A model generated the notes under the pieces. The model was not told the origin of the DNA. It worked only from the letters and a program-made list of their open reading frames with translations, and searched no databases. The position numbers and the translations under genes are program-made. A stretch of 64,000 bases of DNA from a virus: the IMG/VR virus record IMGVR_UViG_3300037264_001145, positions 55,616-119,615 of that record. One strand, 5' to 3'. Of the stretch, positions 1,707 through 48,002 are shown one piece after another (position 1 is the first letter of the stretch; each line of letters begins with the position of its first letter).

Positions 1707-1715
1707 GAGAAAGAA

Positions 1716-8963: not shown

Positions 8964-8971
8964 GATGTGAA

Positions 8972-9677: not shown

Positions 9678-9689
9678 TTTTCTTCACCC

Positions 9690-16815: not shown

Positions 16816-18570
16816 TCAAATTAATTTTCGAAGATCTGTAATAATTATTGATCCATTCTGTTTATGTCCAAAAATCATACAAACTAATGTGTCTTTACAA
16901 AGTCCATGAATTTTCTCATAAGTGTCTGGAAAAACTACCGCATGATCAATACTGTACGAAGAATCAGATATTGTAAGAAAACACATTGGCGCACCAGGAT
17001 TTTTCCCCTTCTTTGTCTTGGTGTGTTTTACGGAATCTATTACAGCACAAACCGAAAAACTTTCGCCGTTCAAAGCCTTAATTAAATCTAAACAATTGTG
17101 TGAAGCAGCACTATCATCTGCGTCGTCAGAAGGAGAACAACTTAAAGAAATACCAAGGAAATATTTTTCTGCTGTTGATTTACCAAGATTCGTGTCTATT
17201 TCATCTTTTGCTAATTGATTCAATTTACCTTCGATGACTTTTAATCTTTTCGGCCCGACGCATGATTTGGAGGAGGATTCGTCATAACCATTTTCTTTTA
17301 ATTTGTTGATAATATCAAGCTTGGTCATTCCAGAAAAATCAAATGTTTCCCCTAGAATATTTTTAGACCATCCTATAATATCATCTTTTTTCATAGACGA
17401 TAGAGACTTGCCTGGCATTTTTGACGCTTGTTCAACCATTTCGGTTAGAACATCTCTCATAGTTTTGTCGTCGCCATCGAACAACTTATCAAAAAACCAA
17501 TCTCTCTCCTTGTCTGTCAAGCCCCTAATTTCTTTATTTTTACCATCCTTGTCCCTGACAGACGTGCCAAATAGAATTTCTAGTTCTTTTACCATTTGCG
17601 ATCTTTCCATTTGGTAACAGTCACAGGCACCGGATTTTATTAAAGCAATCCCAACGCTTCTATGGATAAGAGGTAACGATTTTAAAAACTCGTTCCACGT
17701 AGATAAAGATTCCTTGCTTTGTTCTACGATTTTAGATATCGCAGATTGACCAACCCCCCTTATATTTGAAAGACCAAATTTTATACCGCTGTCTATCATT
17801 TGGAAGTGGACATTACGAACCCTAATATCGGGCGGAAATACATCTATCCCAAACAATCTTGCGTCCTGTACTAGCTTATAGACCTCTTCTTTGGGATCGG
17901 ATTTGTAATTAGAGAATGTTAAATAACTAGTAAAAAATTCGTTTGGAAAGTGTGTTTTTATCCAAGCCGTTGTATAACTAAGCATCCCATAACTTATGGC
18001 GTGGGATTTATTAAAAGAATATCTTTGACTTTTTTCAATCCATCCAAAAATTTGTTTTGCTGTATCTGTTGATACCAATCCTTTTTTAAGACACCCATCT
18101 ATGAATTTGATTTTTAATTTTGCCATTAGCTCTGGTTTTTTCTTACCCATGGCTTTTCTTAGTTCGTCTGCGTTCTCTAACGAGAATCCCGCAACTTCTG
18201 TTGCTATTTTGATGGCTTGTTCCTGATAGACCAAACAACCGTAAGTGTCGCCCAAAATATCTTTGAGACGTGGGTGCAAATAATTGGGTTGTTTTCTACC
18301 AAATTTTATATCTACGTATTCTTCAGATTGTCCACTTTCTAAACAACCCGGCCTCACCAATGCGGTCAGCGCAGCTAATTCCTGAATATTTGATGGCTTG
18401 ACTTTTCTAGCCCATTCTTGTCCAAGTCTAGTTTCCAGTTGAAAAACACCCGTAGTAAAACCAGAGGATATTAGTGCCCAAACCGCAGCGCAATCTAATG
18501 ATATATTATTTGAATCGAATTTGCCTTTTTCGACTTGGCAATCACAAGAAGAAAATTTAATCGTGTCCAT
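16816..18570 (-). CDS. dnaE: DNA polymerase III alpha (DnaE), C-terminal half: fingers to OB domain
   Basis: 584 residues. The sequence begins where the product of 30384-32741 stops. Residues 26-46 match the DnaE segment ending Val-Phe-Gln-Leu-Glu. Then come Arg-Pro-Gly (73-75), Tyr-Gln-Glu-Gln (115-118), Met-Gly-Lys-Lys-Lys-Pro-Glu (141-147) and Phe-Asn-Lys-Ser-His-Ala (186-191) of the fingers, a helix-hairpin-helix (about 270-278) and an OB-like domain (about 504-584). None of the three catalytic aspartates is present, so it must work with the N-terminal half. No intein motif is seen at its N-terminus. A TATAAT lies only 5 bases before the ATG and is probably accidental. Confidence 0.92.
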   Translation of the reverse strand: MDTIKFSSCDCQVEKGKFDSNNISLDCAAVWALISSGFTTGVFQLETRLGQEWARKVKPSNIQELAALTALVRPGCLESGQSEEYVDIKFGRKQPNYLHPRLKDILGDTYGCLVYQEQAIKIATEVAGFSLENADELRKAMGKKKPELMAKLKIKFIDGCLKKGLVSTDTAKQIFGWIEKSQRYSFNKSHAISYGMLSYTTAWIKTHFPNEFFTSYLTFSNYKSDPKEEVYKLVQDARLFGIDVFPPDIRVRNVHFQMIDSGIKFGLSNIRGVGQSAISKIVEQSKESLSTWNEFLKSLPLIHRSVGIALIKSGACDCYQMERSQMVKELEILFGTSVRDKDGKNKEIRGLTDKERDWFFDKLFDGDDKTMRDVLTEMVEQASKMPGKSLSSMKKDDIIGWSKNILGETFDFSGMTKLDIINKLKENGYDESSSKSCVGPKRLKVIEGKLNQLAKDEIDTNLGKSTAEKYFLGISLSCSPSDDADDSAASHNCLDLIKALNGESFSVCAVIDSVKHTKTKKGKNPGAPMCFLTISDSSYSIDHAVVFPDTYEKIHGLCKDTLVCMIFGHKQNGSIIITDLRKLI

Positions 18571-18602
18571 ATTCTATTATACCAGCAAAGCCATTAGATT
18601 TG

Positions 18603-18803
18603 TTAGCCGTCGTACATTCCAAGCAATCTGAATCCGCCTCGTCGGTCCCTAACGTAATCTGTGCCAGGACAACCTAGAGGATAATAGGTTTTACTAACGC
18701 CACAGTTTTTTATACATTTTATTGTGATTCTATCTGTACAAGATTTATCGTGATCTATTACAAAAATACTGCCACAAGCGCATCTATATTTATGTTTTTT
18801 CAT
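18603..18803 (-). CDS. Small zinc-ribbon-like protein
   Basis: 66 residues, start preceded by AGAGATAAAA and overlapping the previous gene by 14 bases. Cys-x-Cys near the N-terminus and Cys-x3-Cys in the middle, with nearby His and Cys, suggest a bound zinc. It is the last gene of the island before the polymerase C-terminal half. No function can be assigned. Confidence 0.55.
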   Translation of the reverse strand: MKKHKYRCACGSIFVIDHDKSCTDRITIKCIKNCGVSKTYYPLGCPGTDYVRDRRGGFRLLGMYDG

Positions 18804-19791
18804 TTTTATCTCTTATCGACCCTAAAAGTCTTAAAATATCAAAACTCCCATCCGAAGATACTGGCACTATCTCTTTTATTCTATCGGGAAAATGATCCCA
18901 ATAAACGATACTTTTACCACTAACATCTTCTTTCCATGGTGTTGTTAATTTAATCGCGTCCGTTAAATAATTTACCAATAATGAAAATGAACCTTGGCCA
19001 GATACAAATATGTCGGATGCGACAAGATGATAAAATGTTGAAAATACATCTTCGTCTATGTGTAATTTTATTTGTCGTTTGTCGGGAAGACGGTGCGATG
19101 ATAAAACTCGCTTTTCTTTCTCTAACATATCCCATACATATATGTGGAATGTAATGTCTTGTAGCTCTTTCATGTTGCTCAAATTTTCTATTATTTTGAA
19201 ATAATGATCAAGGCCCATCCATCTTCTATATCCATTTGCTTCTGTGACATCGCCTCTTCGGATGTGAATTCCAATATTTGTTGTGTCTTTGTCGAAATAA
19301 CACTTAAAATTTTTGACTTGTTTGGAGTTATTGTATTTTCGTTTTAGGTCGTTGTTTTCATAAATATCCCAGTCTATATCAATAAATTGTCCATCTGCCT
19401 GGCTACTTACTCTAAATAGAACATCGAGATCTTGGTTAAGCCCAGGATCTTGTATTAACTTCGCAAATTTTATATCGTCCCATGTAGTTTTTCCTTTCCA
19501 CAACCAAGGAAGTTCTATCTCTTTACACCCCTTGGGAACATCACTTGTCGCCAGTTCGCCTTCGTGAAAGTTTAAAAAATCATTCCACGCTTTCACTGGC
19601 GTTGTTATTTGATAGAAGTTTGTTCCTTTTCTGTCAAACGTTCCATCTGTTTCTCCCTGAAATGGCTGATAAACGAATTTTAGATTATATTTTTTAGCTA
19701 AAGTATATGGCACTAAAAAATTGCTAAATTGATGGCCTATTCCTGCTGCTCCACCATTATTAGCCTTCGGGTTAGATACTATGTATTTCAT
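18790..19791 (-). CDS. GT11-like fucosyltransferase
   Basis: 333 residues. An N-terminal Gly-Ile-Gly-His-Gln-Phe-Ser-Asn loop and a central His-Ile-Arg-Arg-Gly-Asp (176-181) are the hallmarks of alpha-1,2-fucosyltransferase-type (GT11) enzymes, which use a GDP-6-deoxyhexose donor. A GDP-mannose 4,6-dehydratase in the same operon could supply such a donor or its precursor. No GDP-fucose synthase is visible here, so the donor may be another GDP-deoxysugar or come from the host. The start overlaps the FkbM-type methyltransferase stop by 4 bases. Confidence 0.7.
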   Translation of the reverse strand: MKYIVSNPKANNGGAAGIGHQFSNFLVPYTLAKKYNLKFVYQPFQGETDGTFDRKGTNFYQITTPVKAWNDFLNFHEGELATSDVPKGCKEIELPWLWKGKTTWDDIKFAKLIQDPGLNQDLDVLFRVSSQADGQFIDIDWDIYENNDLKRKYNNSKQVKNFKCYFDKDTTNIGIHIRRGDVTEANGYRRWMGLDHYFKIIENLSNMKELQDITFHIYVWDMLEKEKRVLSSHRLPDKRQIKLHIDEDVFSTFYHLVASDIFVSGQGSFSLLVNYLTDAIKLTTPWKEDVSGKSIVYWDHFPDRIKEIVPVSSDGSFDILRLLGSIRDKNEKT

Positions 19792-20474
19792 TGTGGTTTA
19801 ATCCTTTCAAATAAAACATTACATGTATTAGTGCGAAGCTTATTGAAACCTGGCAACAATTTTACCAGATCTCTTTCGTAAACTCCATCTTCCCACATAT
19901 TCCCGGTACATTCTGTATATAAGTATTTTGTTATTTCTAGAGTTTCTTTTGCCCCATCAAGGAATTTGCGTTCTGCGCCATTAACGTCTGCCCATATTAA
20001 ATCTATGTTTTTTATTCCTTCTTGTTTTATAAAAGTGTCCAATCTTCTACCAAAAACACTAACTCCTTTTCCAAAAGGAATATCTGGATGTGCCCTCAAA
20101 TGTTCTTTTGGTTTATTTAAAGATCCAGAGCCGCTCCAGTCTGTTATTCCCTCCTTAATCCAATGTGGAACCCCATGGCTTTCGTAAAAAATAGTTGGTC
20201 CATCAACATCTGATATTGCTTCTTCTATCAACTTATATCTATCTCCGCAGCCCCATAATGTAGACTGGTTTTCTGACAACTCCTTGATCTTTTTTATATT
20301 TCTTGGGTCTGGTTCAAAGCTAAATACCTTGGACTTTGGAAAAACACTAAGAAAATTTCTTGTGTCCTTTCCGTCATAAGCCCCTATTTCTATAATCAAC
20401 GGGTTATCTTTGTTAATTAACCCGCCTATATATCTAATTATGTCTAGATTCATATTATGGTCTACGCTTGTCAC
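19788..20474 (-). CDS. FkbM-family methyltransferase
   Basis: 228 residues from a GTG with GGAG 8 bases upstream. The Rossmann SAM-binding motif Ile-Glu-Ile-Gly-Ala-Tyr-Asp-Gly near residues 25-32 and the following Phe-Glu-Pro-Asp-Pro strand are typical of FkbM enzymes, which O-methylate sugars. It overlaps both neighbours by 4 bases, so it belongs to the glycan operon. It probably methylates a hydroxyl of the glycan or of its precursor. Confidence 0.75.
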   Translation of the reverse strand: MTSVDHNMNLDIIRYIGGLINKDNPLIIEIGAYDGKDTRNFLSVFPKSKVFSFEPDPRNIKKIKELSENQSTLWGCGDRYKLIEEAISDVDGPTIFYESHGVPHWIKEGITDWSGSGSLNKPKEHLRAHPDIPFGKGVSVFGRRLDTFIKQEGIKNIDLIWADVNGAERKFLDGAKETLEITKYLYTECTGNMWEDGVYERDLVKLLPGFNKLRTNTCNVLFERIKPQ

Positions 20475-21007
20475 TTTTCACACTCCGTGTTTAAGCTTAT
20501 CAGTGTCCCGTTTTCAAAATCCATTTTTGGAATATAGGCGCGAGAACAATCGTCATGTTGTGAATGCTCCGTGTTTCTCCAATCCCACAACCTAATATTT
20601 TTGAATCCTATTTTTTCTAACAAATTTTTTAAAGAAACAAAATCGTAGCATGTTTTATGATATATTGTTCCGTCGCCCATTTGCATTTTTCCATAAAGCG
20701 GCCCCAAGAAATTATCTAACGAGAACATCCTTGAAAAATATAAGCGTACCATTTGTTCAAAATCTGGAACAGCTAAACGAAGAGTTCCTCCTTGTTTTAA
20801 AACCCTAAACCATTCCTCTAACACAAGCACGACTTCCGCTCTGTCGAAATACTCAAGAACATGAGAAGCATAAATTATATCAGCAGAATTATCTCCAAAA
20901 GGTAACTTTGTGACATCGTGAGAATGTAGGTATGGGAAATCTCCTCCGTCTATGCTTGTCCAGTCTGATCCAAAATCTCTTTTCCCACACCCCAAATGAA
21001 GTTTCAC
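20471..21007 (-). CDS. SAM-dependent methyltransferase (type 11)
   Basis: 178 residues from a GTG preceded by AAGGAGTTCATATA. Leu-His-Leu-Gly-Cys-Gly (3-8) is the SAM-binding loop. The Asp-Val-Thr-Lys-Leu-Pro-Phe segment and the Leu-Lys-Gln-Gly-Gly-Thr-Leu strand are standard for small-molecule or sugar methyltransferases. It sits between the FkbM methyltransferase and a cupin in a tightly overlapping operon. Substrate unknown. Confidence 0.75.
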   Translation of the reverse strand: MKLHLGCGKRDFGSDWTSIDGGDFPYLHSHDVTKLPFGDNSADIIYASHVLEYFDRAEVVLVLEEWFRVLKQGGTLRLAVPDFEQMVRLYFSRMFSLDNFLGPLYGKMQMGDGTIYHKTCYDFVSLKNLLEKIGFKNIRLWDWRNTEHSQHDDCSRAYIPKMDFENGTLISLNTECEK

Positions 21008-21423
21008 TATATGAACTCCTTGTCTTCTGTTTGGCCGTGATACGGCCCCGTTTTGTATTCGTACACAACCGTATCGTCATCTAACGACATATAGTTATGA
21101 CCGCCCTCTAGTGTGATAGAGCAATCCAAAGAATGCAATACTATGTCATCCCTCAAAATCTTATTGTCGATATCGTACAGGGTAACTTTTACCCTTCCTC
21201 TTAAGACAACCCACGACTCCTGTGCAATCTTGGTTTCATTAGAATTTTTCCATTTATGTTTGTGTGGTTTAAAAGTTTGAAGTTCACGAAGTCTGATTGT
21301 TGCCATCTGTATAAAATTATGACAAGGCACAACATCTTCTCTTCCTTCTTGAATATCAAGAAACCTATTTATTATATGTAAAAGCTTTCCTGGTATAACT
21401 TTTGAATATATGTATTCTGCCAT
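21007..21423 (-). CDS. Cupin-like protein, sugar-modification type
   Basis: 138 residues with a poor ribosome-binding site. The core has a His-Lys-His cluster (about residues 58-60), a Gly-Arg-Val-Lys-Val-Thr-Leu-Tyr-Asp strand and a Gly-Gly-His turn, as in small cupins of polysaccharide loci (WbuC/FdtA-like). Such proteins often isomerise or epimerise nucleotide sugars, or bind them. Activity here is not established. Confidence 0.55.
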   Translation of the reverse strand: MAEYIYSKVIPGKLLHIINRFLDIQEGREDVVPCHNFIQMATIRLRELQTFKPHKHKWKNSNETKIAQESWVVLRGRVKVTLYDIDNKILRDDIVLHSLDCSITLEGGHNYMSLDDDTVVYEYKTGPYHGQTEDKEFI

Positions 21424-21430
21424 AATTTAT

Positions 21431-22459
21431 TTACTTTACTCTAATGGCCCCTGTCCACTTACTGCTCGATTGTATGCCTGATTTTCCGTAGTAACCAAGC
21501 CAGTATTCAACCATCTCATCCAATAATGTTTCAAACGTATATTTTGGTTTCCATCCAAGAATAGTCCTTACTTTTGTAGAATCTCCTCTTAGAAAGTTTA
21601 ATTCTTCTGGTCGTAGAAGTCTTGGATCTTGAACAACAAACTTTCTATAGTCCATACCAAGTTTACCGAAAACATAATCGCAAAGTTCTCTAACAGAATG
21701 GGCTTCGCCAGTAGCAACGGTAAAATCATCTGGTTCTTTGTGGCTTAGAATCATTTGCATCGCTCTTACATAATCATAACTGTGTCCCCAGTCTCTACTT
21801 GAATCCATATTTCCAAGCGTCAAAGTTTTTGTTAACCCAAGACTTATTTCTACCGCCCCCATGACAACTTTAGAAGTTACGAAATTACTTCCTCTGCGTG
21901 GGGATTCGTGGTTGTGAAGTATTCCATTAGAACAGAATAAGCCAAAGGCTCGGCGATAATATCTTACCATATTAAAACTAAAAAGTTTAGAGCATCCATA
22001 GACACTCACCGGGTCTTTTGGTGTCGTCTCTCTTTGAAATTTATCTTCGTCAAAATTATTTCCGAAAATCTCAGAGCTACTTGCTTGATAGAATTTAGCG
22101 CTTGGAGCAAACTTACGAAAAGCTTCTAGCATATTGGCTACGCCCAAAGCATTAATTTGTACTGTATAGATTGGTATATCCGCACTTATTCTTACGTGAG
22201 ACATAGCACCCAAATTATAGATTTCGTCTGGTTGTGATTCTTTTATGACTTTTTCTATGGAAGACCCGTCAGACAAATCTCCATAATAGGTATTTAACCT
22301 TTTAGATAAATGACATATTCTACTGTCCTGATTTTCTGCTACACTATGTCTGCGCAACATTCCATGAACATCATAGCCCAAATCCAATAAATGTTCTGCT
22401 AAATAAGAACCGTCTTGTCCACTTATACCAGTAATAAGTGCAACTCTTTTTTTGCTCAT
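21431..22459 (-). CDS. gmd: GDP-mannose 4,6-dehydratase
   Basis: 342 residues; AAAGGTGTAAA before the ATG. Short-chain dehydrogenase fold with Thr-Gly-x2-Gly-x2-Gly (10-17) for NADP, a catalytic Tyr154-x3-Lys158 and a nearby Ser-Ser-Ser-Glu. The Asp-Tyr-Val-Arg-Ala-Met segment is also family-typical. It converts GDP-mannose to GDP-4-keto-6-deoxymannose, the precursor of GDP-fucose, GDP-rhamnose and GDP-perosamine. The aminotransferase immediately upstream overlaps it by 4 bases, pointing to GDP-perosamine. Full length for the family. Confidence 0.92.
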   Translation of the reverse strand: MSKKRVALITGISGQDGSYLAEHLLDLGYDVHGMLRRHSVAENQDSRICHLSKRLNTYYGDLSDGSSIEKVIKESQPDEIYNLGAMSHVRISADIPIYTVQINALGVANMLEAFRKFAPSAKFYQASSSEIFGNNFDEDKFQRETTPKDPVSVYGCSKLFSFNMVRYYRRAFGLFCSNGILHNHESPRRGSNFVTSKVVMGAVEISLGLTKTLTLGNMDSSRDWGHSYDYVRAMQMILSHKEPDDFTVATGEAHSVRELCDYVFGKLGMDYRKFVVQDPRLLRPEELNFLRGDSTKVRTILGWKPKYTFETLLDEMVEYWLGYYGKSGIQSSSKWTGAIRVK

Positions 22460-23529
22460 TTTACACCTTTCGTGTCTGTATAAACCCTTTTTATTATCTT
22501 ACATATTCTTCGAATTTGCCTACTCGTCAAATCTAAGCTCGACGGTAAATATACTAGTTCTTCGGATATTTCTTTTGCGCCTGGAAATTTAGCTCTTGTT
22601 TTATATACTGGGTTGTCCGAAATACATTTATAGTATTTTGTTGCTTGAATATTTTCTGATTTTAATGCTTCTATTATTTCGTTGGCAAAATGGGTTCTGT
22701 AGACCACCATCCACAAACTTTCTTTGTCTATTGTATTCGGAGAAAATCTGTAAGGTCTAATCCCGTTTATGTAATAGTTATTGAAAACTTGCCATCGTTT
22801 TTCCAGTAGGACTTTAATATCCCTTAATTGACTTAGAACATAACTTGCTTGAATATCACTGTATCTAAAATTGACGCCAATATGCTTGTGTAGACGATCT
22901 TTTCTCCATTGATCCCCATGGTCCCTGATCTGTCCTAATCTTTTGGCTACCTTGTCATCGTCCGTCACCACAGCCCCGCCCTGACCCCCTGTAATCAATT
23001 TAGGGACACTAAAGGAGAACACCCCTACATTTCCTGTCCTGCCCGCATACGGCATCCCAATTGACTGGCATGAATCTTCTATTATTGGTATGTTATGTGT
23101 ACTACAGAATTTTTTAACAGCCCCAATATCATCTCCGTAATATGCGTTGTGATTAACGAATATTACACAACTGATGTTTTTATTAAATTTCAATTTATCT
23201 ACATCTATACAAAGCGTGTATGGATTTATGTCTACAAGCTTTACTTTATATCCCATGAATCTGGCCGCATTTGCTCCCGCCAAGAAGGTGTAGGCGGGGA
23301 ATATAATTGTAGACCCCCTTGGGAGTTTAAGGGCTTCAATAGCCATGATTAGCGCAACTGTTCCGCTCGTGGTTGTAAAGCAATATTTTGAACCAGTTAA
23401 TTTCTTGATTTCTTCTTCCAACAAAAGACATTCTGAACCCGGACCCAAATTGCCTTTGCGAAGAGTTTTAAATACAGCCCATGCATCTTTGAATCGACAT
23501 AATGGACTAAATTGAGATATTTTTTTCAT
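22456..23529 (-). CDS. DegT/DnrJ-family sugar aminotransferase (perosamine-synthase-like)
   Basis: 357 residues. PLP-binding features: Thr-Ser-Gly-Thr (54-57), Phe-Pro-Ala-Tyr-Thr-Phe (77-82), Glu-Asp-Ser (151-153) and the Schiff-base Lys177 in Phe-Ser-x3-Pro-Lys followed by Gly-Gly-Gln-Gly-Gly. Such enzymes transfer an amino group to keto-deoxysugar nucleotides. Coupling with gmd suggests GDP-4-keto-6-deoxymannose as substrate, giving GDP-perosamine; that is an inference from context. No strong ribosome-binding site; the start overlaps the preceding stop. Confidence 0.85.
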   Translation of the reverse strand: MKKISQFSPLCRFKDAWAVFKTLRKGNLGPGSECLLLEEEIKKLTGSKYCFTTTSGTVALIMAIEALKLPRGSTIIFPAYTFLAGANAARFMGYKVKLVDINPYTLCIDVDKLKFNKNISCVIFVNHNAYYGDDIGAVKKFCSTHNIPIIEDSCQSIGMPYAGRTGNVGVFSFSVPKLITGGQGGAVVTDDDKVAKRLGQIRDHGDQWRKDRLHKHIGVNFRYSDIQASYVLSQLRDIKVLLEKRWQVFNNYYINGIRPYRFSPNTIDKESLWMVVYRTHFANEIIEALKSENIQATKYYKCISDNPVYKTRAKFPGAKEISEELVYLPSSLDLTSRQIRRICKIIKRVYTDTKGVK

Positions 23530-24344
23530 ACTAAAACTTTTTCATTTAAACTATTATACAATTCTATTAGTTTGTTATTTGCACAATCTTCTGGACTGAA
23601 ATGCATCAACTTCTTGTCTGCAAAATTTTTGTCTATTCTATGTCCTACGAAATCTGACAATGTTTGAACACCAATCCCATTTGCTAAATTTCCACAATTA
23701 ACAAAAAACATATCTAGGTTTGAATAGTGGTGCAAGATGTATGTATATGTATTAAACCATAATTTTTCGAGGAAATCTTTATTTGCAACAGTTGCTTGTA
23801 AATATTCCGCATTTTTAATTATGTGAGATATGCTTTGCAGAAATTCTGACGGATGCCTAAAGACACAAATAAATTTACAGTTTTGTAAATAAGGAAGCCA
23901 AACAGGTAGGGTATATGAGAATCGCGGGTCTTTGAATAGAAATGGTTGTACGGAAATTAGTTTGAGTATTCTTTCTTGCACGCTTGCATTTACATACGCG
24001 GGATCAATGTTTTTATGACGAGGATTGCGGCGAGAATCTTTGTCAAATAGAAAGCATTCATTAAGTTTTTTAGATTCTGTAATCACTGTGTCGGTCTCTA
24101 AAGTAGCAAGCCATCCTTGTGGTGAGTTTACTTTTGTTCTTATCACATCTACTTTTGGACACGACCATAGAATATCGTCATTCAAGCCATTTACTAATGG
24201 TGTTTCAAAATATCCTTTTTCATTAAATTTATCTGCGAGGTTCCCTGCCCCCCCGATGTTATAGCTTTGTCCAGAAGTAATTGCTCCGGCCACAAGGCTA
24301 GTTCCACTTCTTCCGCATCCAAGAATTATTATATTCTTAGCCAT
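23526..24344 (-). CDS. Sulfotransferase-like protein
   Basis: 272 residues. The N-terminal Gly-Cys-Gly-Arg-Ser-Gly-Thr-Ser (9-16) is the 5'-phosphosulfate-binding loop of PAPS-dependent sulfotransferases. A later Phe-Arg-His-Pro-Ser (after residue 160) matches their 3'-phosphate-binding strand. It would move sulfate from PAPS to a glycan hydroxyl in the cytoplasm. It is embedded in the glycan operon and overlaps the aminotransferase by 4 bases. It could alternatively be a related family member without sulfotransferase activity. Confidence 0.7.
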   Translation of the reverse strand: MAKNIIILGCGRSGTSLVAGAITSGQSYNIGGAGNLADKFNEKGYFETPLVNGLNDDILWSCPKVDVIRTKVNSPQGWLATLETDTVITESKKLNECFLFDKDSRRNPRHKNIDPAYVNASVQERILKLISVQPFLFKDPRFSYTLPVWLPYLQNCKFICVFRHPSEFLQSISHIIKNAEYLQATVANKDFLEKLWFNTYTYILHHYSNLDMFFVNCGNLANGIGVQTLSDFVGHRIDKNFADKKLMHFSPEDCANNKLIELYNSLNEKVLV

Positions 24345-24528
24345 TATTTTCTCGTTCTTGGATTTCGTGTTCCATACTAGCTACTTGCCATCCAATTCTC
24401 CAGTCCATGTAATCGTTTTCTTCTACCCCTTTGTCGTATGGATTGACAATTAAACCGTCACTGTTGGTAAAAGCGTCTTTGCCTAATCTGAAAGCTTTTT
24501 CGTTGAATAAATTTGGCGAATTAACCAT
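24337..24528 (-). CDS. Rmf/CrpP-like small protein
   Basis: 63 residues from the ATG at 24528, which overlaps the previous stop (ATGGTTAA) and has GGGAAAAG upstream; two more ATGs lie upstream at 24549 and 24546. The pattern Ala-Phe-x2-Gly-x2-Ala-Phe, then Asn-Pro-Tyr-x-Lys-Gly-x-Glu and Trp-Arg-x-Gly-Trp, resembles the ribosome-modulation-factor/CrpP family (a repeated Phe-x2-Gly...Asn-Pro-[FY] unit). If it is a true Rmf relative it could act on host ribosomes. Its place inside a glycan operon is unexpected. Assignment by pattern only. Confidence 0.5.
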   Translation of the reverse strand: MVNSPNLFNEKAFRLGKDAFTNSDGLIVNPYDKGVEENDYMDWRIGWQVASMEHEIQERENNG

Positions 24529-25354
24529 TTTTCTTTTCCCATTCATCATAAAGGTAGTTGGGATCTCCTTCTCCCCATTCGACCCCTTCGTTTCTTACTA
24601 TACCTTCTCCACGTTTTTTATTATACAAAATTGTATTATTTCTAAATCTTTTTTTATCTTCCGTATCGGTGTAAACTTGAGGCTTTGGGTGCCAGAGATG
24701 AATTGGACGACAATTTTGATCAAAATATTGTGCTAATCCTGATTTCATTAATCTGTTGTGCATATCAGCATCAACATACCCATATGTTTTGAAATCTTCG
24801 TCATAACCACCAAGTTTCCTAAAAGCTTCCATTGGGGCACAGTGACCAAAATGCCAGCATACGTAGCTTCTTTCGTCTATTTGGTGTTCATGAGTTCTTT
24901 TTTGCAATTCTTCTGCGTTAATTTTACCACTAAAATATAAGTCCGTATCCTTTTTTTCACAAGAGTACGAGAGTCCGCCGCAACGATATAAAACTTCAGG
25001 ATGATCAAAACATCCTTTTATGAAATCTCCAGTATAAAAAAGCTCTGGATCTTTTTGGGCAAGCATTTTTGATTGTCCGTATTTGATTACAATATTTCTC
25101 ATAAAAGCGTCTCCGCGCTCCCACGGTGGAGATCTATCGAAAGTAAAATAATGTAGATTTTTTGCTTCTAGGTCTGAAAAATCTTCATGAATACTATCGT
25201 TAGCTACAAGGATCATCCATTTATCTGATGGAACAACAGTTTTTATGAGTGAGTCTAATACTCTTCTAATGTAATTTCCACGGCCAAAATTTGGTACGAG
25301 CAAGATTAAATCTCTATTTGTTATAGACCAATCAAAAGTTTTGTGTGTAATCAC
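24521..25354 (-). CDS. GT2-like glycosyltransferase, paralogue 1
   Basis: 277 residues from a GTG with AAGGATAAA upstream. GT-A type family-2 pattern: Leu-Val-Pro-Asn-Phe, a Val-Ala-Asn-Asp strand, Gln-Lys-Asp-Pro-Glu as probable metal/nucleotide site, and a C-terminal Gly-Gly-Tyr-Asp-Glu-Asp-Phe with a following Asp-Ala-Asp-Met, as in galactosyltransferase-type enzymes. Paralogous to the genes at 25356-26123 and 28800-29585, which share the opening Asp-Trp-x3-x-[KR]-Asp-Leu and the Gly-Asp-[FM]-I strand. Substrate unknown. Confidence 0.75.
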   Translation of the reverse strand: MITHKTFDWSITNRDLILLVPNFGRGNYIRRVLDSLIKTVVPSDKWMILVANDSIHEDFSDLEAKNLHYFTFDRSPPWERGDAFMRNIVIKYGQSKMLAQKDPELFYTGDFIKGCFDHPEVLYRCGGLSYSCEKKDTDLYFSGKINAEELQKRTHEHQIDERSYVCWHFGHCAPMEAFRKLGGYDEDFKTYGYVDADMHNRLMKSGLAQYFDQNCRPIHLWHPKPQVYTDTEDKKRFRNNTILYNKKRGEGIVRNEGVEWGEGDPNYLYDEWEKKNG

Positions 25355-25355
25355 T

Positions 25356-26123
25356 TTATCCTTCCCCCCAATTAATCTTAAGATTTCTTACAACGTTTTC
25401 GTCTCTTTTTTGAGAATATACGTCTTTCATTCCTTGATGGTTAGTGTTTATAGGTCCATGCCACAAATGAATTGGACTACAACTTTCGTCATAGAATGGT
25501 TTTAGTCCACATTTAAGCAATCTGTCATACATATCATGATCTTCTGGTCCATATGATTTAAAATCTTCATCGTAGCCATTAATTCTTCTAAAATAATCTA
25601 TTGGTACGCAATGACCATAATGCCAATAAGTATATGTATTTTTCGGTATTGTAAATTTTATAGATGCCCGGATCAATTCTGCTTCGTCTATGAACCCGTT
25701 AAAAAAACTATGTTTTTGATATTGTTTGGTTACGTATGCCAATCCCCCACATCTGTATAAAACATCTTGGTGATCTAAACAACCTTTTATAAAATCTCCT
25801 GTAAATAAAATTTCAGGATCTTTTTGTGCAAATAGCTTACATTGACAACGTTTTATGGCTATGTTGCGAATAAAAGCACCGTTACGTTCGATAAGAGGAG
25901 ATCTTTCAAACGTAAAATAATGAACATTCTTCCATTGCAAATCTTCTAGTGGTTCGTGGAACCCATCATTGATAACCAAGACTACCCACCTATCTCTTGG
26001 AACGGATGTTCTAACTAAATTATCTATAGTTCTTTGTATATAGTCCGCTCTTTGAAAGTTCGGTATAAATATAACTAAATCTTTTTTTGTTACATCCCAA
26101 TCGAAATTCTTAAAGGTTGTCAT
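25356..26123 (-). CDS. GT2-like glycosyltransferase, paralogue 2
   Basis: 255 residues; AAGGGGGTAAAAAC before the ATG. Close paralogue of the adjacent downstream gene: same N-terminal strands, Ile-Asn-Asp, Gln-Lys-Asp-Pro-Glu, Gly-Gly-Leu-Ala-Tyr, Gly-His-Cys-x-Pro and Gly-Tyr-Asp-Glu-Asp-Phe motifs. Tandem duplication is the likely origin. The two enzymes may add successive residues or different sugars to one glycan. Confidence 0.75.
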   Translation of the reverse strand: MTTFKNFDWDVTKKDLVIFIPNFQRADYIQRTIDNLVRTSVPRDRWVVLVINDGFHEPLEDLQWKNVHYFTFERSPLIERNGAFIRNIAIKRCQCKLFAQKDPEILFTGDFIKGCLDHQDVLYRCGGLAYVTKQYQKHSFFNGFIDEAELIRASIKFTIPKNTYTYWHYGHCVPIDYFRRINGYDEDFKSYGPEDHDMYDRLLKCGLKPFYDESCSPIHLWHGPINTNHQGMKDVYSQKRDENVVRNLKINWGEG

Positions 26124-27097
26124 GTTTTTACCCCCTTAACAACTGTGTTTCCAAGAGGGCCGATATATTTTACTAGATTATGTTTTGTTAATAGTAGTTG
26201 TGCGTACTCATTTGCTCTTTCGGCCTTAACTTTTTCATAAAACTCATTTTTCCCGTCAAGTTTATCATACCCACCACCGCCACATGGGTGAAAATGATCT
26301 ACTGTAACCCTATCACAATGAGCAACTTTTATTTTCTTAAAAGCTCTCAAAAAGAATACGCTATGTTCAACTACTTTAAAATCATCATCATATCCACCAA
26401 ATGCTTGAATCGCTTCTTTTTTACCCATCCAAAAAGATAGAACTATATCGACCACTGGACAACCGAATTCAATTCCTTTATCTCTTCTCTCAAAGTGAGC
26501 TATTCCTCTCGCAAGTTCCGTTTCGTTAAGACACCCAAAGTAATTAGCAAATCCTGTTACATTTCCACCCACCAAGTCTATGTTTGAATTTTCTAATATA
26601 TTTAACCATATTTCTAGTTGTGTGTGTGCTGTAAAAATAAAATCGTCGTCTAATGAAACAACATACGGGGTTGTAGCTGCGGCCATTGCTCGGTTTTTCC
26701 CATAAGAAATTCCGCTGTTATACGGCAACTTAAGAAAAGTAACATTTGGTCTTGTATTTTTAGACGGCACTCTGCTATCGTCAGCAACAATAATTTTAAT
26801 TCCTGGATAAAATTTGTCTATGCTTTTAAGGAGCCTCTCTAAACACTTAGGTCTTTCGAAGGCTTTGATCATTATTGTAACATTATCAAGCGATCCTTTC
26901 ATACCATCTCCTTTACAAAATTCTATCGGCGGAGAAATAACAATTTGTATTCCTTCTCGTATTACAGTAGCGGCTGGAAGCGTGGAAATTTGTTCCAAAA
27001 CAGAGTCTACCGTAATCGGAACTGGAGTCAAAGCCGGAGCTAATCTTCTTTGTTTCTTTTCTTCTCCAGTTAGTTCGCGCCTTTGATCATGCTTCAT
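26120..27097 (-). CDS. GT2 glycosyltransferase with DxD motif
   Basis: 325 residues; AAGGAAATAAT before the ATG. After a 70-residue N-terminal extension comes a family-2 GT-A domain: Met-Ile-Lys-Ala-Phe-Glu-Arg-Pro, Val-Ala-Asp-Asp-Ser, Asn-Ser-Gly-Ile-Ser-x-Gly-Lys-Asn, and Ser-Leu-Asp-Asp-Asp (Asp150-152) for metal and nucleotide sugar. A later Gly-Gly-Tyr-Asp-Asp-Asp-Phe and a His-Phe-His resemble GalNAc/galactosyltransferase-type acceptor regions. It overlaps the GT2 paralogue downstream by 4 bases. Confidence 0.82.
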   Translation of the reverse strand: MKHDQRRELTGEEKKQRRLAPALTPVPITVDSVLEQISTLPAATVIREGIQIVISPPIEFCKGDGMKGSLDNVTIMIKAFERPKCLERLLKSIDKFYPGIKIIVADDSRVPSKNTRPNVTFLKLPYNSGISYGKNRAMAAATTPYVVSLDDDFIFTAHTQLEIWLNILENSNIDLVGGNVTGFANYFGCLNETELARGIAHFERRDKGIEFGCPVVDIVLSFWMGKKEAIQAFGGYDDDFKVVEHSVFFLRAFKKIKVAHCDRVTVDHFHPCGGGGYDKLDGKNEFYEKVKAERANEYAQLLLTKHNLVKYIGPLGNTVVKGVKT

Positions 27098-27098
27098 A

Positions 27099-28286
27099 TT
27101 ATTTCCTTAAGAACAAGACCGCAGCCCTTTTTTCGTTACAATAATCGTCTTCTTTTCTCATAACAGAGGAGCATGACAAAAATGGGGTTAATCGGTGTGC
27201 TACGAATCCGCTATCTCTAAACCTTTTAGTAATATGATTTATGTCTGGAAGTTTAAGGCTCTGGTGAGTATCAATGTTACCAAAAAATACATCTGTTCTG
27301 GATTTGAGTGCGTTGGTTCCAATCTTAGTGTCTATTAAAACGGCCTCTTTGCTGGACGCAATAAGTTGGTCGATAAGGAAATCGTGTTCTTCTATATGAT
27401 GAAAAATTCCCGCGCAAATTGTAAAATCGAACTTCCTTCCGTAGAAGGTATTTTGCCAAAAGGCAGGATCGAGAATATCACAATTGATAAATTCATACCT
27501 GTCTTCTGGCAAGAACTGATTTGAACTCCAATACAAGAGACCTTGAAGAATGTACTTGTTTCTTCCCTCTAGTGCAGTTAAACTTTTCGCACCGTATCCC
27601 GCATACTTAGAACTCCAATAAGATACGTTGGACCCAATATCTAATATACTCTTGTCTTTAAAATCATATTTATTTACTACTTGATTAACTAGTAGATTTT
27701 CTCTATATGTATTTCTTGCAGATAATTCTTGTGGAGACCGGGGGGTGCCGACACCTGGGATAACCGTTTCCCCTCCTATTTTTAATGGGTAATACCATGG
27801 ATTAAGCATGTTAATAACATGATTTACATTTTGAACCCTTTTCTTTATTTCGCTAGAAGATACGCCTTTGTAGTAGGGTAGTGTGACAATCCTTGTATAA
27901 TGCGGAATGCTGGATTTAATACTTTCCCTAAGTTCGTCATCGTGAGACTCGCTTTCCACAACAACATCTGGTTTTATGTGTAATATGTTTTTGACGGGAG
28001 AATATGTGTCTTGGCAAACTACTAAATCCACATATTTTATAGACTCTATTACCCTAACTCTTTCGTCCATCGACATGATTGGAGGATTTTTTCTCTCCAT
28101 TACCGCTTCGTCTGTCAAAACTCCGACAACCAAGATGTCGCCTAAAGCCTTGGCATTTTTTAGATGAAGCACATGTCCGTAGTGAATTATATCTCCACAG
28201 ACATAAGCATAAACTATTATCGGATCGGCTGATTTCTTATGCACGGTGGATTTCCACAGTGCCATCCCTTTACTGGCGTCTTCCAT
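27099..28286 (-). CDS. Cytidylyltransferase-methyltransferase fusion
   Basis: 395 residues. Residues 23-152 are a TagD/ethanolamine-phosphate-type cytidylyltransferase: the His-Tyr-Gly-His signature (35-38), Met-Asp-Glu-Arg-Val-Arg-Val-Ile-Glu and the Ser-Ser-Ser-Glu-Ile-Lys-Lys-Arg turn. Residues about 190-330 are a class I SAM methyltransferase with Asp-Ile-Gly-Ser-Asn (216-220). The fusion could activate a phospho-alcohol as its CDP form and methylate it or its product. A LicD-type transferase gene overlaps it by 70 bases, which suggests a shared CDP-linked donor. The start may instead be the ATG at 28265. Confidence 0.75.
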   Translation of the reverse strand: MEDASKGMALWKSTVHKKSADPIIVYAYVCGDIIHYGHVLHLKNAKALGDILVVGVLTDEAVMERKNPPIMSMDERVRVIESIKYVDLVVCQDTYSPVKNILHIKPDVVVESESHDDELRESIKSSIPHYTRIVTLPYYKGVSSSEIKKRVQNVNHVINMLNPWYYPLKIGGETVIPGVGTPRSPQELSARNTYRENLLVNQVVNKYDFKDKSILDIGSNVSYWSSKYAGYGAKSLTALEGRNKYILQGLLYWSSNQFLPEDRYEFINCDILDPAFWQNTFYGRKFDFTICAGIFHHIEEHDFLIDQLIASSKEAVLIDTKIGTNALKSRTDVFFGNIDTHQSLKLPDINHITKRFRDSGFVAHRLTPFLSCSSVMRKEDDYCNEKRAAVLFLRK

Positions 28287-28798
28287 TCTCCGTACTGCTC
28301 CTTAAGATATTTTTCTATTTGTTTTACCACATTAACCTTCACACCCTTAAATTCCACTTCTTCAAATTCGTCGAAAACATCAGGAGAATAACAATAATAC
28401 TTCTGCCCAGCATACCAAACTGAACACCATGTACAATTGACCCCTCTGTAATGAATAAACCATTCAATTTTAACCCTATTCCTGATAAAAGAAATCTCCA
28501 TACCGATGTTTCTATTACCAAGTACGTGAGCAAGTTGAAATCCTCTTGCCTTCATTTCATCTATAAGTTCCTGTTGTTTTAAATCGGTAAGATCAGAAAT
28601 ACTTGCTCCAAGATCAATATCGTCATCGTGGGCAATAAAATCTTTTTCTCTATAATAGCCAAGGCACGTACCGCAAGTAAGCCATGTGAATAGACCAATT
28701 TTATTCGCTACTTCGTAAGCGTCTCTTAAATTATCGGTAGCATCTTTCACAACCTTTGGATCAGAACCAAACAATGGCGCTACCATCCCGTTATCCAT
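28217..28798 (-). CDS. LicD-family phosphotransferase
   Basis: 193 residues from the ATG at 28798, preceded by GGGGAATTTGAT next to the previous stop. Thr-Cys-Gly-Thr-Cys-Leu-Gly-Tyr-Tyr-Arg followed by Ile-Ala-His-Asp-Asp-Asp-Ile-Asp is the LicD/fukutin nucleotidyltransferase-fold active site, which moves phosphocholine or a related phospho-alcohol from its CDP form to a sugar. The adjacent cytidylyltransferase would make the donor. Phosphocholine, phosphoethanolamine or ribitol/glycerol phosphate are all possible cargo. Confidence 0.82.
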   Translation of the reverse strand: MDNGMVAPLFGSDPKVVKDATDNLRDAYEVANKIGLFTWLTCGTCLGYYREKDFIAHDDDIDLGASISDLTDLKQQELIDEMKARGFQLAHVLGNRNIGMEISFIRNRVKIEWFIHYRGVNCTWCSVWYAGQKYYCYSPDVFDEFEEVEFKGVKVNVVKQIEKYLKEQYGEWKTPVKGWHCGNPPCIRNQPIR

Positions 28799-28799
28799 A

Positions 28800-29585
28800 T
28801 CAAATTCCCCTTCCCCATTCACAACCACCATTCGCTACCACGTCTAGTCTTTGCAAATCTTGTTTATATGTAGATTCATTGTCTAATATTGTCTTATGAA
28901 ATCGTCTCATTATAGGATGACCTATGTGATAAGTAGTTGTTTCTTTATCTATTAACACAGGCGCTCCTGATTTCTTTAGTCTTTCGAGCATTTGCCAATC
29001 CTCATACCCATAACCAGCTCTATACTTTTCATTATACCCGCCCATATCTTTTAATTTTTGTGTTCTTATACAACAACCAGCATGAAAAGCCTGATTTCTT
29101 TTATCGCTTGCTTCCCATTGTCTTAAAATTGGTAATTTGGTTAAATCAATAAATGGATTGTCAATTATTCTTTGTGTATCACACTCATTTAATTCAACCA
29201 TTCCTCGCGGTCTGTAAACAACATCGTTAAGACCCAAGATCTTAGAAATCATATCTCCTTCTATAATAATTTCTGGATCTTTTGTAGCAAGCCATTCGCT
29301 TTGACACCGTTTTATTACAAAGTTTCTAATCATACACCCATTACGTTCATCAGCGGGATCTCTCTCGAACGTAAAATATCTTAGATTAAAGTCCCGCTCT
29401 AAATCTTCCATTGGTTCATGCGGGCCATCGTTGACAATTAAAAACATCCATTTGTCTTCTGGAACAGAAGTCTTGAATCTCTTGAGGGTTGGGATTAAAA
29501 GATGTTTTCTTTTGAAATTGGGCACATAAAACACCAAATCCCTATTGGTACAAGACCAGTCAAAATCAGTTGCCGATTTGAACAT
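28800..29585 (-). CDS. GT2-like glycosyltransferase, paralogue 3
   Basis: 261 residues. Same family as the genes at 24521 and 25356: opening Phe-Asp-Trp-Ser-Cys-Thr-Asn-Arg-Asp-Leu, Ile-Val-Asn-Asp, Lys-Asp-Pro-Glu, Gly-Asp-Met-Ile, Gly-Gly-Tyr-Asn-Glu-Lys-Tyr and Gly-Tyr-Glu-Asp. It overlaps the gene upstream by 20 bases. Likely adds a sugar in the same glycan pathway; substrate unknown. Confidence 0.75.
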   Translation of the reverse strand: MFKSATDFDWSCTNRDLVFYVPNFKRKHLLIPTLKRFKTSVPEDKWMFLIVNDGPHEPMEDLERDFNLRYFTFERDPADERNGCMIRNFVIKRCQSEWLATKDPEIIIEGDMISKILGLNDVVYRPRGMVELNECDTQRIIDNPFIDLTKLPILRQWEASDKRNQAFHAGCCIRTQKLKDMGGYNEKYRAGYGYEDWQMLERLKKSGAPVLIDKETTTYHIGHPIMRRFHKTILDNESTYKQDLQRLDVVANGGCEWGRGI

Positions 29586-29937
29586 ACCTCGTCGTTTTCC
29601 TTACCTCTACCTTCCTTGTCAAGCTTTCTTTCTTTTCAAAGCAGCCGTCGCAGATAGCTCCTTGAATCCTATAATCCCTATGACTCATCATATCCTCTAA
29701 TTGATCAAACTTGCTACCATAACCAAAATGTATTTCTATTGTTCCACCTTCTAAATTGGGTAACAAGCCTTCGTCGTCGTTCCCTGGTCCATTTGGATCG
29801 AACGGTATTTCTTTCTCGCAAACTATGCATCGCCATTCCCGCGAAGTAGTTGGTCTATTTCTACGCACAGGCTCGTCCTGATGAGGACAACAAACATTTG
29901 CTTCACACCCACAAGAATTGTATGTTTTTTTATCCAT
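29566..29937 (-). CDS. Cys-rich putative zinc-binding protein
   Basis: 123 residues; GAGGATATAAT before the ATG. Three Cys groups: an N-terminal Cys-x-Cys...Cys-Cys-x-His, a central Cys-x2-Cys and a C-terminal Cys-x2-Cys. The middle and C-terminal pairs probably form one zinc finger. Conserved Gly/Asp/Asn loop between them. No family recognised. It lies between the glycan genes and a P-loop kinase. Confidence 0.55.
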   Translation of the reverse strand: MDKKTYNSCGCEANVCCPHQDEPVRRNRPTTSREWRCIVCEKEIPFDPNGPGNDDEGLLPNLEGGTIEIHFGYGSKFDQLEDMMSHRDYRIQGAICDGCFEKKESLTRKVEVRKTTRYVQIGN

Positions 29938-30391
29938 ATATTATATCCTCAAACCCTTCCGATAAATCTGGTTTCTCCAATTGTTTATTTAATTCACAAA
30001 TTACACTGTCGGGAACTTTCTTTTCGTTTCTTCGAAAGTTGTGTTGCAAACAAGAACCCAAGCTTTTGTCAAAATATAAAGCTATGATTTTAAATCCAAA
30101 AGCTTTACCAAATTCAATCCAATAAGTCCTACTTTCTTTATTTATAAGCCACGCACTCTCATCAAGTATTATACTAAGATTTGGATTTTTGGATAAAGCA
30201 AAAATTATATGGCCGACAATTTGTTTTAAATAATCTTCTTTATCTTTATTATATTGTTCTTTGTAGAACGCTAGTCTGAAATCATCTACCGAAATAACAA
30301 CAATATTTTTTTCTCTTTCGGCTATTTTTCTTGACGCCGTTGTTTTACCAGATGCTGGCGGGGCTACGGTTAAATACAAGTACCTAGTCAT
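29930..30391 (-). CDS. P-loop kinase, polynucleotide-kinase-like
   Basis: 153 residues from the ATG at 30391, which overlaps the stop of the polymerase half (ATGACTAG). Walker A Ala-Pro-Pro-Ala-Ser-Gly-Lys-Thr-Thr near residues 10-18, a Val-Asp-Asp-Phe-Arg strand as in 5'-kinases of the T4 Pnk type, and an Ile-Ile-Leu-Asp-Glu-Ser strand. It could phosphorylate 5'-OH ends of nucleic acid or a small molecule. A second protein of this type is at 62623-63108. Confidence 0.65.
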   Translation of the reverse strand: MTRYLYLTVAPPASGKTTASRKIAEREKNIVVISVDDFRLAFYKEQYNKDKEDYLKQIVGHIIFALSKNPNLSIILDESAWLINKESRTYWIEFGKAFGFKIIALYFDKSLGSCLQHNFRRNEKKVPDSVICELNKQLEKPDLSEGFEDIIYG

Positions 30392-32741
30392 CAACCTCAA
30401 CACCTTCCTGTATTTCGATACTGCTATCTATTCCGTTGATCAAGTCTTGTGCTAACCACACTTTGTCCAAGGCAACAACCCCAAGAAAGTCGAACTTTAC
30501 ACATCCAAGAGCTTCACTAGACTCCATTTCTAAGCCAACAATTCTCGTCTTGTTTTTGGGGTCGTAAATAAGAGGCACGAGGTCATTAATTGGTACATCT
30601 GCTATAACGAGACCTGCTGCGTGACGGCTTTGTGATTTTTTAGTTCCTTCCAATCTCATACTTTGATCAAATAGTGGTTTGTACCACTGATAATATTCCT
30701 TCATTTTTTCTATGTTATCAATACTCCAATTTAAAATACCGTAACTAGAATTCTCTGTTTCTTTTCGTATTTTTTGTAAATCATCTATGATCGAAGCTTC
30801 ATCTGGCATTAAACCAGTAATTTCATTGGATAAATCAAATGGGGTCATAGAGACTTCGTTTGGATTCTTGCCCTCTTTTGTTGCCTTAACTTTCATTAGA
30901 TGTTTAACTAAATCTGGCTGGGCACGGAAAACTTCTTTAAGAGCGGCTTTTCCTTGAAGTCTACCGAACGTGACCATTTGAGAGACCTTATCTTCGCCCC
31001 ATTTGTTAATCAAATATTCAACAACTTTTTCCCTAAACACCACACCAATATCCATATCTATATCGGGAAGACTAATATGGCCAGGATTTGTTTGGACGGA
31101 TTTGTTTTCATCCAACTTGCAACACATCCTTAATGCATCCACGATATGTGAATTATTTGGATTTGGAAATTCTAATCCCAAAACCTGGTCCTCTGATGAT
31201 GAACACATTGTTTGATTATTTTTGAATACTTCTAATATATATAACCACATCTTTGGATTATTATTATCTATCCAATCAGCTTCTTCTTTAAGTAATTTTT
31301 TATTATGTATACTTTTGTATTTTAAATTACATTGGATAATTAAATTCTTTATTATATTTCTTGTATCATCAATTTTTTCTTGAGTTATAGAATCGGAATT
31401 ATCTGATAACCATTCCATGAATGTTGTTGGCCCGACATCAAAGTGTGGTGGTATATTTCTTCCATGATTATAGAATCTTTCCCAATATAAATCATACTCA
31501 ATAGGATCTATTCCAGTTATATTTAGTAGATAATTAACCAAAGATCCTGCGCCAGAACCTCTTCCTTTTCCTCTTGGAGCTTTGTTTTCGTCAACAAATT
31601 TACAAGCATCATAAACAATTAGAAAATAGTCCGCAAGTCTAGCCTCTTTGATAACGGACAATTCCCTAAGCAGTCTTGTCCAGTATATTTTTTTCTTGTC
31701 CATTGATAGGTTGGACAAGATGTTTTTGGCTCCTTGAACACATAATTTTTTCAGGTAATCATCAGAAGAATCATTGTTGGGAGTTTGGTATTTAGGTAAG
31801 CAAGGTTTCCTTCCAATGCTTGTAGATTTTATCATATCGGTAATTACAAGCGTTTGTTCCATTTCGGATTTGCTATAGTGTTCCTGCATTTCTTCTGGAG
31901 AGAATATATAGAATGTATCTCGGAAGAAAAAGGACATGGTATCTGCGCCCTCTCCTTTAAGTCTAGCTTGTTCCTCTGCCGTTGTATGAAGTTGGCTATA
32001 CAGAAGTATTCTATGATCTTCAACCTGCTCCCTTTTGGCATAATGTGCATCTAACGTACAAGCAGACGGTACATCCAAAGCCTTTGATACTTCTCTCAAA
32101 CATTCCACGGCAACTTTTTGGGCTGGCATCCCTTCTTCCTGTAATTCTATGAAGTAGTTTTCCTTACCAAAAATTGAAATATATCTAGCAACAATTTCGT
32201 CGGCTATATTTCTCCAATTCGGTTTGAGTAACTTTCTAACTTCGTCCATATCTTCTGTTTGTTCGCCTATTAAACACGCCTGACCGACATCTGTGAATAA
32301 AGATTCTGATAATTCACCGATGATACAACCACTCAAACATATTAAATTGCGATTTTTAGTAAAGAGATGTAAATTATCTACGCCAATTCTAGGTTTTCTG
32401 TAAAAGTGCTCTGGTTGATTGGTGTAGCTAACAAGAGACATTAGTTCTTTTATACCATCGTCGTTTTTGGCCAGGATTGTTAAATGGTTGTGGGACTTAT
32501 TCTCGTTGGTTTTAATGGTTTGATCAAGTTTAGACGTATATATTTCACATCCGTAGACTGGTTTGATTCCATATTTTTTGCAAGCTTTTTGAAAATCAAC
32601 CATTCCAGAAACATTGCCATGATCTGTCAGAGCACAAGCTGGACAACCAATTTCTTTTGCTCTTTTAGCAATTTGTTCGGGACTTGAGAGGCCGTCTAAA
32701 AGACTAAACCAACTATGAACATGCAAACAACTATAACACAC
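30384..32741 (-). CDS. dnaE: DNA polymerase III alpha (DnaE), N-terminal half: PHP and palm
   Basis: 785 residues from a GTG with AGGAGCAATTAA upstream. Residues 1-280 are a PHP domain with apparently intact metal ligands (His-Val-His at 7-9, Asp-His-Gly at 40-42, Cys-Glu at 65-66, Asp-Ala-His at 231-233), so it may be an active proofreading nuclease. Gly-Arg-Gly-Ser-Gly-Ala-Gly-Ser is at 393-400. The catalytic aspartates are Asp562, Asp564 (Pro-Asp-Ile-Asp-Met-Asp) and Asp751 (Lys-Phe-Asp-Phe-Leu-Gly). About 110-130 extra residues (roughly 428-556) sit just before the first aspartates. The protein ends right after the palm; fingers and the rest are encoded at 16816-18570. The opposite end is continuous with the kinase gene, with no intein or intron sequence. 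Confidence 0.93.
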   Translation of the reverse strand: MCYSCLHVHSWFSLLDGLSSPEQIAKRAKEIGCPACALTDHGNVSGMVDFQKACKKYGIKPVYGCEIYTSKLDQTIKTNENKSHNHLTILAKNDDGIKELMSLVSYTNQPEHFYRKPRIGVDNLHLFTKNRNLICLSGCIIGELSESLFTDVGQACLIGEQTEDMDEVRKLLKPNWRNIADEIVARYISIFGKENYFIELQEEGMPAQKVAVECLREVSKALDVPSACTLDAHYAKREQVEDHRILLYSQLHTTAEEQARLKGEGADTMSFFFRDTFYIFSPEEMQEHYSKSEMEQTLVITDMIKSTSIGRKPCLPKYQTPNNDSSDDYLKKLCVQGAKNILSNLSMDKKKIYWTRLLRELSVIKEARLADYFLIVYDACKFVDENKAPRGKGRGSGAGSLVNYLLNITGIDPIEYDLYWERFYNHGRNIPPHFDVGPTTFMEWLSDNSDSITQEKIDDTRNIIKNLIIQCNLKYKSIHNKKLLKEEADWIDNNNPKMWLYILEVFKNNQTMCSSSEDQVLGLEFPNPNNSHIVDALRMCCKLDENKSVQTNPGHISLPDIDMDIGVVFREKVVEYLINKWGEDKVSQMVTFGRLQGKAALKEVFRAQPDLVKHLMKVKATKEGKNPNEVSMTPFDLSNEITGLMPDEASIIDDLQKIRKETENSSYGILNWSIDNIEKMKEYYQWYKPLFDQSMRLEGTKKSQSRHAAGLVIADVPINDLVPLIYDPKNKTRIVGLEMESSEALGCVKFDFLGVVALDKVWLAQDLINGIDSSIEIQEGVEVDD

Positions 32742-47996: not shown

Positions 47997-48002
47997 CAAT
48001 AA

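Follow-up and report, generated by a model that had tools for sequence, protein, structure and literature searches.

The window analysed here, a stretch of 64,000 nucleotides, corresponds to bases 55616-119615 of IMGVR_UViG_3300037264_001145, a linear IMG/VR virus record of 119,615 bases from an uncultivated phage. It carries two genes on the same strand, with separate start and stop codons, whose products match different portions of the family C DNA polymerase DnaE: an N half with the PHP and palm domains and a C half with the fingers, helix-hairpin-helix (HHH) and OB domains (Table 1). A preliminary description made from the sequence alone had read these genes as a DnaE split between palm and fingers, with separately translated halves about 11.8 kb apart, and both open reading frames (ORFs) as well as their complementary Pfam and PDB matches bear this out. 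In Pfam, the N half matches PHP (E-value 1.7e-41) and DNA_pol3_alpha (5.3e-61), and the C half matches DNA_pol3_finger (7.5e-48) and HHH_6 (1.6e-13). When compared with solved DnaE structures, the two products account for complementary stretches of the same chains without overlap: on T. aquaticus 2hpi the match of the N half ends at residue 626 and that of the C half begins at residue 642, and on E. coli DnaE the break falls between residues ~573 and ~584. The phage polymerase family phrog_405 is likewise matched by both halves in complementary parts. AlphaFold models of the N and C halves reach predicted local distance difference test (pLDDT) values of 84 and 88, respectively, and the top Foldseek matches of both are DnaE structures. 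Sequence evidence for the OB domain is weak, and this domain is backed by the model and by the alignment to full-length DnaE; with it, the family C domain set (PHP, palm with three catalytic aspartates, fingers, HHH and OB) is complete across both halves together. The N and C halves are confirmed as complementary parts of one family C polymerase.

The preliminary description had placed the PHP domain and all three catalytic aspartates in the N half and none of the latter in the C half. This assignment stands, but the positions given for the aspartates (562, 564 and 751) need correction: the alignment identifies D560, D562 and D751 as the equivalents of E. coli D401, D403 and D555, window residue 562 corresponding to E. 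coli 403 and residue 751 to 555. D560, D562, D564 and D751 are all invariant among 22 N halves. The FNKSH motif is unbroken in the C half, and finger motifs such as this one stay conserved. Wherever the ratio of nonsynonymous to synonymous substitution rates (dN/dS) could be computed, with synonymous sites at or near saturation, it lies between 0.04 and 0.10 in both halves, which are thus under strong purifying selection.

Relatives were drawn from IMG/VR close-relative and whole-record searches, and the same split recurs in many independent contigs, with contiguous versions in sister lineages. Group 1, which includes the window phage, comprises 12 genomes with both halves, always N followed by C on one strand. 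Among its aligned members, protein identity to the window falls as low as 53% (N) and 57% (C). Apart from the 11.8 kb of the window, the gaps between the halves span 13.7 kb (3300007352_000013), ~18.2 kb (3300032053_005343), 13.2 kb (3300012232_000010), 5.0, 8.5, 9.1, 7.1, 10.6, 8.3 and 6.8 kb (seven further genomes), and ~17 kb across the record ends of 3300031949_000005, if that record is circular. In group 2 (L035, L037, L038, L041, L043, L048, L050, L066 and near-copies), the N half is followed by a gene of ~230 amino acids (aa) and then by the C half. The intervening gene encodes a DEDD exonuclease of the RNase_T family, which can be assigned to the DEDDh type because D11, E13, D129, H194 and D199 are invariant. 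In group 3 (G018 = L134 and G019 = L135), the halves are ~3.2 kb apart, and the intervening DNA includes a homologous exonuclease gene located at the C half or close to it. The break falls at the same palm/fingers linker in all 12 group 1 genomes and in ten loci of groups 2 and 3, and in every group it comes after the last palm helix and before the fingers. In groups 1 and 2, most C halves begin with a short Cys-x-Cys cap, which is missing from contiguous DnaEs. Among the best 80 loci of a scan of bacterial and archaeal genomes, one more N-exonuclease-C locus was found on a contig binned with a Flavobacteriales metagenome-assembled genome (MAG) (L155), and none of these loci pointed to a host for the window phage. 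As separate observations, an Omnitrophota MAG carries two DnaE ORFs that may reflect a frameshift (L197), and two further phage DnaEs, of Bacillus phage Jayan (L021; 411 + 634 aa) and of L075 (464 + 680 aa), are split inside the palm, close to the site of the 115-aa insertion in group 1 members.

Table 1. Features of the split dnaE locus and associated genes in the window (window coordinates).
Feature	Position	Strand	Description
dnaE N half	30384..32741	-	785 aa; PHP and palm; catalytic D560, D562, D751; Pfam, PDB and model
dnaE C half	16816..18570	-	584 aa; fingers, HHH and OB; no catalytic Asp
Gap between halves	18571..30383	-	11,813 bases; ~17 co-oriented genes
PHP domain	32136..32726	-	N half residues 6-202; HHDHEHCDH metal-site motif intact
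Palm insertion	31092..31436	-	N half residues 436-550, ~115 aa; in most of group 1, absent from G008 and group 2
C-half N-terminal cap	18511..18570	-	C half residues 1-20; Cys-x-Cys motif; predicted beta hairpin
GTATAAT-N5-ATG before C half	18568..18582	-	Promoter -10-like
PDDEXK (Cas4-like) nuclease gene	32742..33626	-	Upstream flank common to split and contiguous relatives
SSB-like gene	16275..16766	-	Downstream flank common to split and contiguous relatives; named from synteny and sequence
DEDD exonuclease	53209..53775	-	Away from the polymerase; candidate proofreading subunit

In a joint tree computed with IQ-TREE under a posterior mean site frequency (PMSF) mixture model, 22 split polymerases and one further polymerase, L058, form a single clade (support 100/100), and the nearest relatives outside it (L065, L052, L064 and L074) are contiguous DnaEs. 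Trees of the N halves alone and of the C halves alone recover the same clade, with Shimodaira-Hasegawa-like approximate likelihood ratio test (SH-aLRT) values of 99 and 96, and both pieces therefore descend from one polymerase rather than from two polymerase families. The surroundings of the halves are also shared with the contiguous relatives. The N half is preceded by a PDDEXK nuclease gene, often together with deoxynucleoside monophosphate (dNMP) kinase and Toprim genes, and the C half is followed by SSB and glycosyltransferase genes; the PDDEXK gene likewise precedes the contiguous dnaE of L064 and L049, and SSB and/or the same glycosyltransferase follows that of L049, L052 and L065. Matching flanks in split and contiguous relatives argue that DNA was inserted into dnaE and that the halves were not translocated. 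The split is thus broader than the preliminary description saw: judging from trees and synteny, it is an old, clade-wide trait that arose by insertion into dnaE, with gap content varying by group.

Taken together, the two genes very probably encode a replicative family C DNA polymerase of a phage lineage in the form of two subunits, which would assemble without splicing or ligation. The likeliest mechanism would be non-covalent assembly in trans across the natural palm/fingers interface, yielding an enzyme with polymerase activity that presumably serves as the replicase. Some points weigh against this interpretation. In L058 (2474-8231), placed inside or next to the split clade, palm and fingers are joined in one 854-aa ORF, so that the split is not obligatory there. 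The OB domain of this polymerase is encoded by a separate gene ~2.7 kb downstream, with an exonuclease in between, which represents a different cut. Since a tree that holds the split polymerases together without L058 is not rejected (approximately unbiased (AU) test, p = 0.52), a re-fusion in L058 is possible. In addition, because the records are linear fragments, another polymerase could lie elsewhere, and host Pol III could copy the phage. The rival that fares best builds on the last of these points and supposes that the halves have ceased to form a polymerase, with a PHP nuclease role for the N half and a DNA-binding role for the C half. The distance between the genes and the intact PHP residues would fit such a division, but the invariant catalytic aspartates, the conserved finger motifs and the purifying selection on both halves speak against it, as do the phage's own replication genes, DnaB, a Toprim primase-like protein and RecA among them. 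This alternative is considered unlikely. No second DnaE, PolA or PolB was detected in the 119,615-base record, and no PolB was found in the 10 genomes examined.

Alternatively, a split intein or trans-splicing intron could join the halves once they are expressed, as happens in cyanobacterial DnaE. DnaE is a known host of split inteins, and inteins interrupt polymerase halves at several sites in several relatives (L004 at 8801-11512, L122, L123 and L066); a Pfam intein splicing domain is present in G002. The N halves, however, end no more than ~20 residues past the palm and the C halves begin ~20 residues before the fingers homology, and therefore there is no room for intein parts at the break. 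No intein parts were found at the N-half ends and C-half starts facing it, as the preliminary description had noted for the window, and the stop and start codons are retained throughout. Rfam introns were absent both from the window and from 146 kb of sequence from relatives. The earlier statement that the break differs from the cyanobacterial intein site also holds, FNKSH being intact and the break lying ~170 residues earlier in E. coli numbering. A DnaE of the cyanobacterial split-intein type was rejected on the grounds of its missing intein and different break site, and post-expression joining in general is regarded as highly improbable. A comparably small chance is given to a separation of the halves by translocation of one of them, or to their recruitment from two different polymerases. 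The 5-18 kb between the halves in group 1 could suggest either event, but the flanks match both sides of contiguous dnaE in relatives, and separate trees of the N and C halves arrive at one and the same clade. Finally, although all members of the window clade are metagenomic contigs, an assembly error or local pseudogene is refuted by the recurrence of the same junction in more than 20 divergent loci from different metagenomes, which differ in the length and content of the gap and keep both frames intact.

For the two-subunit polymerase, the following course of events can be proposed. The ancestor would have carried a contiguous dnaE between the PDDEXK nuclease and SSB genes. DNA would then have been inserted at the palm/fingers linker, and new stop and start codons would have created two genes. 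Possibly the first insert was the DEDDh exonuclease gene, which is located at the linker in groups 2 and 3; in the window lineage the insert would have been replaced or enlarged by a variable cargo of 5-18 kb. The separately translated products would dock at the palm/fingers interface into one active polymerase, with the PHP domain and the three catalytic aspartates supplied by the N half and the fingers together with the HHH and OB DNA-binding domains by the C half. Mobile elements also occur around these genes: HNH/NUMOD4, LAGLIDADG and GIY-YIG genes adjoin the halves in several relatives, with no homing endonuclease at the break of the window. In L095 (IMGVR_UViG_3300032894_000182, 697-3980), a GIY-YIG gene and an HNH-like ORF interrupt the N half itself, leaving pieces of 454 and 312 aa. 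This virus would need a three-piece polymerase and exemplifies how the older split could have come about.

The cargo of group 1 is variable and largely glycan-related. In the window, the gap holds mostly glycosyltransferases, methyltransferases and nucleotide-sugar enzymes; besides the glycosyltransferases, its products include an AAA kinase, LicD, a cytidylyltransferase, a sulfotransferase-like protein, a DegT aminotransferase, a GDP-mannose 4,6-dehydratase, and FkbM and other methyltransferases. Much of this gene set is shared with G001 and G005, and G007 and its kin have mostly different gap genes, among them capsule-synthesis-like and methyltransferase genes. The other group 1 records contain an exonuclease related to that of the window genome, or none was detected. 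The window exonuclease could be a plain relocated copy of the group 2 enzyme, although the two are only distantly related. An intact PHP active-site motif was seen in every group 1 N half tested, so that PHP-based proofreading is also possible in this group. Upstream of the C half, GTATAAT-N5-ATG is invariant in 9 group 1 genomes amid otherwise poorly conserved sequence, and in the loci of these relatives the C half is almost the sole ORF with this arrangement; across the whole window, the motif shows no enrichment. GTATAAT represents a putative promoter -10 element, and GTATAAT-N5-ATG may constitute a phage promoter with little or no leader. Another copy of the motif (window 47994-48008, minus strand) lies where the ribonucleotide reductase gene begins. 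A more tentative and rather doubtful extension sees the dnaE split as a genomic cargo bay framed by two indispensable, invariably conserved halves, in which a proofreading exonuclease lodged first, entire glycan-related cassettes are now exchanged among phages by recombination in the conserved halves and the C half's own promoter shields the polymerase supply. Elsewhere on the minus strand, the window encodes a BrxL-like protein of 470 aa with BrxL_N and BrxL ATPase domains (56973-58385) and a 629-aa protein with metallophosphatase and T4-type RNA ligase domains, perhaps involved in RNA repair (60156-62045).

If correct, this interpretation would describe a natural two-subunit family C replicase that is formed without protein splicing and cut exactly at the palm/fingers boundary, with stages of the gene side by side in living lineages: contiguous, with an inserted exonuclease and with a large inserted cargo. 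The assembly of a split replicase, as well as the breakage and re-use of essential phage genes as docking sites for variable genes, would become directly testable. It also carries a warning for annotation, where such phages appear to encode two partial polymerases.

Several known systems resemble parts of this arrangement. In the T4-like Aeromonas phages 25 and 44RR, the PolB gene is split into 43A and 43B, and the pieces from phage 25 co-purify and are active (Petrov et al. 2010, as reviewed in PMC2988022). Here, too, a phage replicative polymerase consists of two separately translated pieces; however, it belongs to family B and not C, a homing endonuclease or an untranslated spacer separates the closely spaced halves, and the split occurs in a few related phages. 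Group 2.2 jumbo phages encode a minimal PolIII-alpha split into distant genes beside a PolB (Iyer et al. 2021, PMC7824862). While a PolIII-alpha homologue is thus also made up of proteins from distant loci, it retains only core catalytic and template-binding domains, and its pieces are described as NTP-binding versus Mg-/template-binding; the window phage, in contrast, has the full PHP-to-OB set, divided into PHP-palm and fingers-HHH-OB, and no PolB was found. The cyanobacterial DnaE with its split intein (Caspi et al. 2003, as cited in PMC3919608) is likewise encoded by two separate genes, but it is broken at another site and its halves are joined by protein splicing. In the split NrdA of phage Aeh1, an insertion cut an essential enzyme into two chains that assemble actively (Friedrich et al. 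2007, as reviewed in PMC2988022), although this enzyme is a ribonucleotide reductase, and the cut was made by one homing endonuclease gene, mobE. Consisting of two separately translated pieces that are contiguous in relatives, the window enzyme in this respect fits the genes-in-pieces type represented by gp43A/B and NrdA, both of which are precedents for the non-covalent assembly proposed here. An isolate, Rossellomorea phage phiT1 (PV767480, L137), carries a DnaE split at the same linker into gp20 and gp18 with a 49-aa ORF between them. It was rejected as a member of the window clade because the tree places it elsewhere, among contiguous DnaEs of Bacillus phages; its halves are nearly adjacent, and its split apparently arose independently. 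Splits by inteins and frameshift-type fragments are the only divided forms of PolIII alpha mentioned in a survey of ~2000 bacterial genomes (PMC3919608). In the open-access literature, gp43A/B, the jumbo-phage PolIII-alpha, the cyanobacterial intein and NrdA were the only precedents found for a split DnaE of the window type, although a report in a subscription journal may be missed. In comparison with these precedents, the distinguishing features are the full domain set, its position as the sole polymerase found, the cut point, the exonuclease in the cut and the variable cargo.

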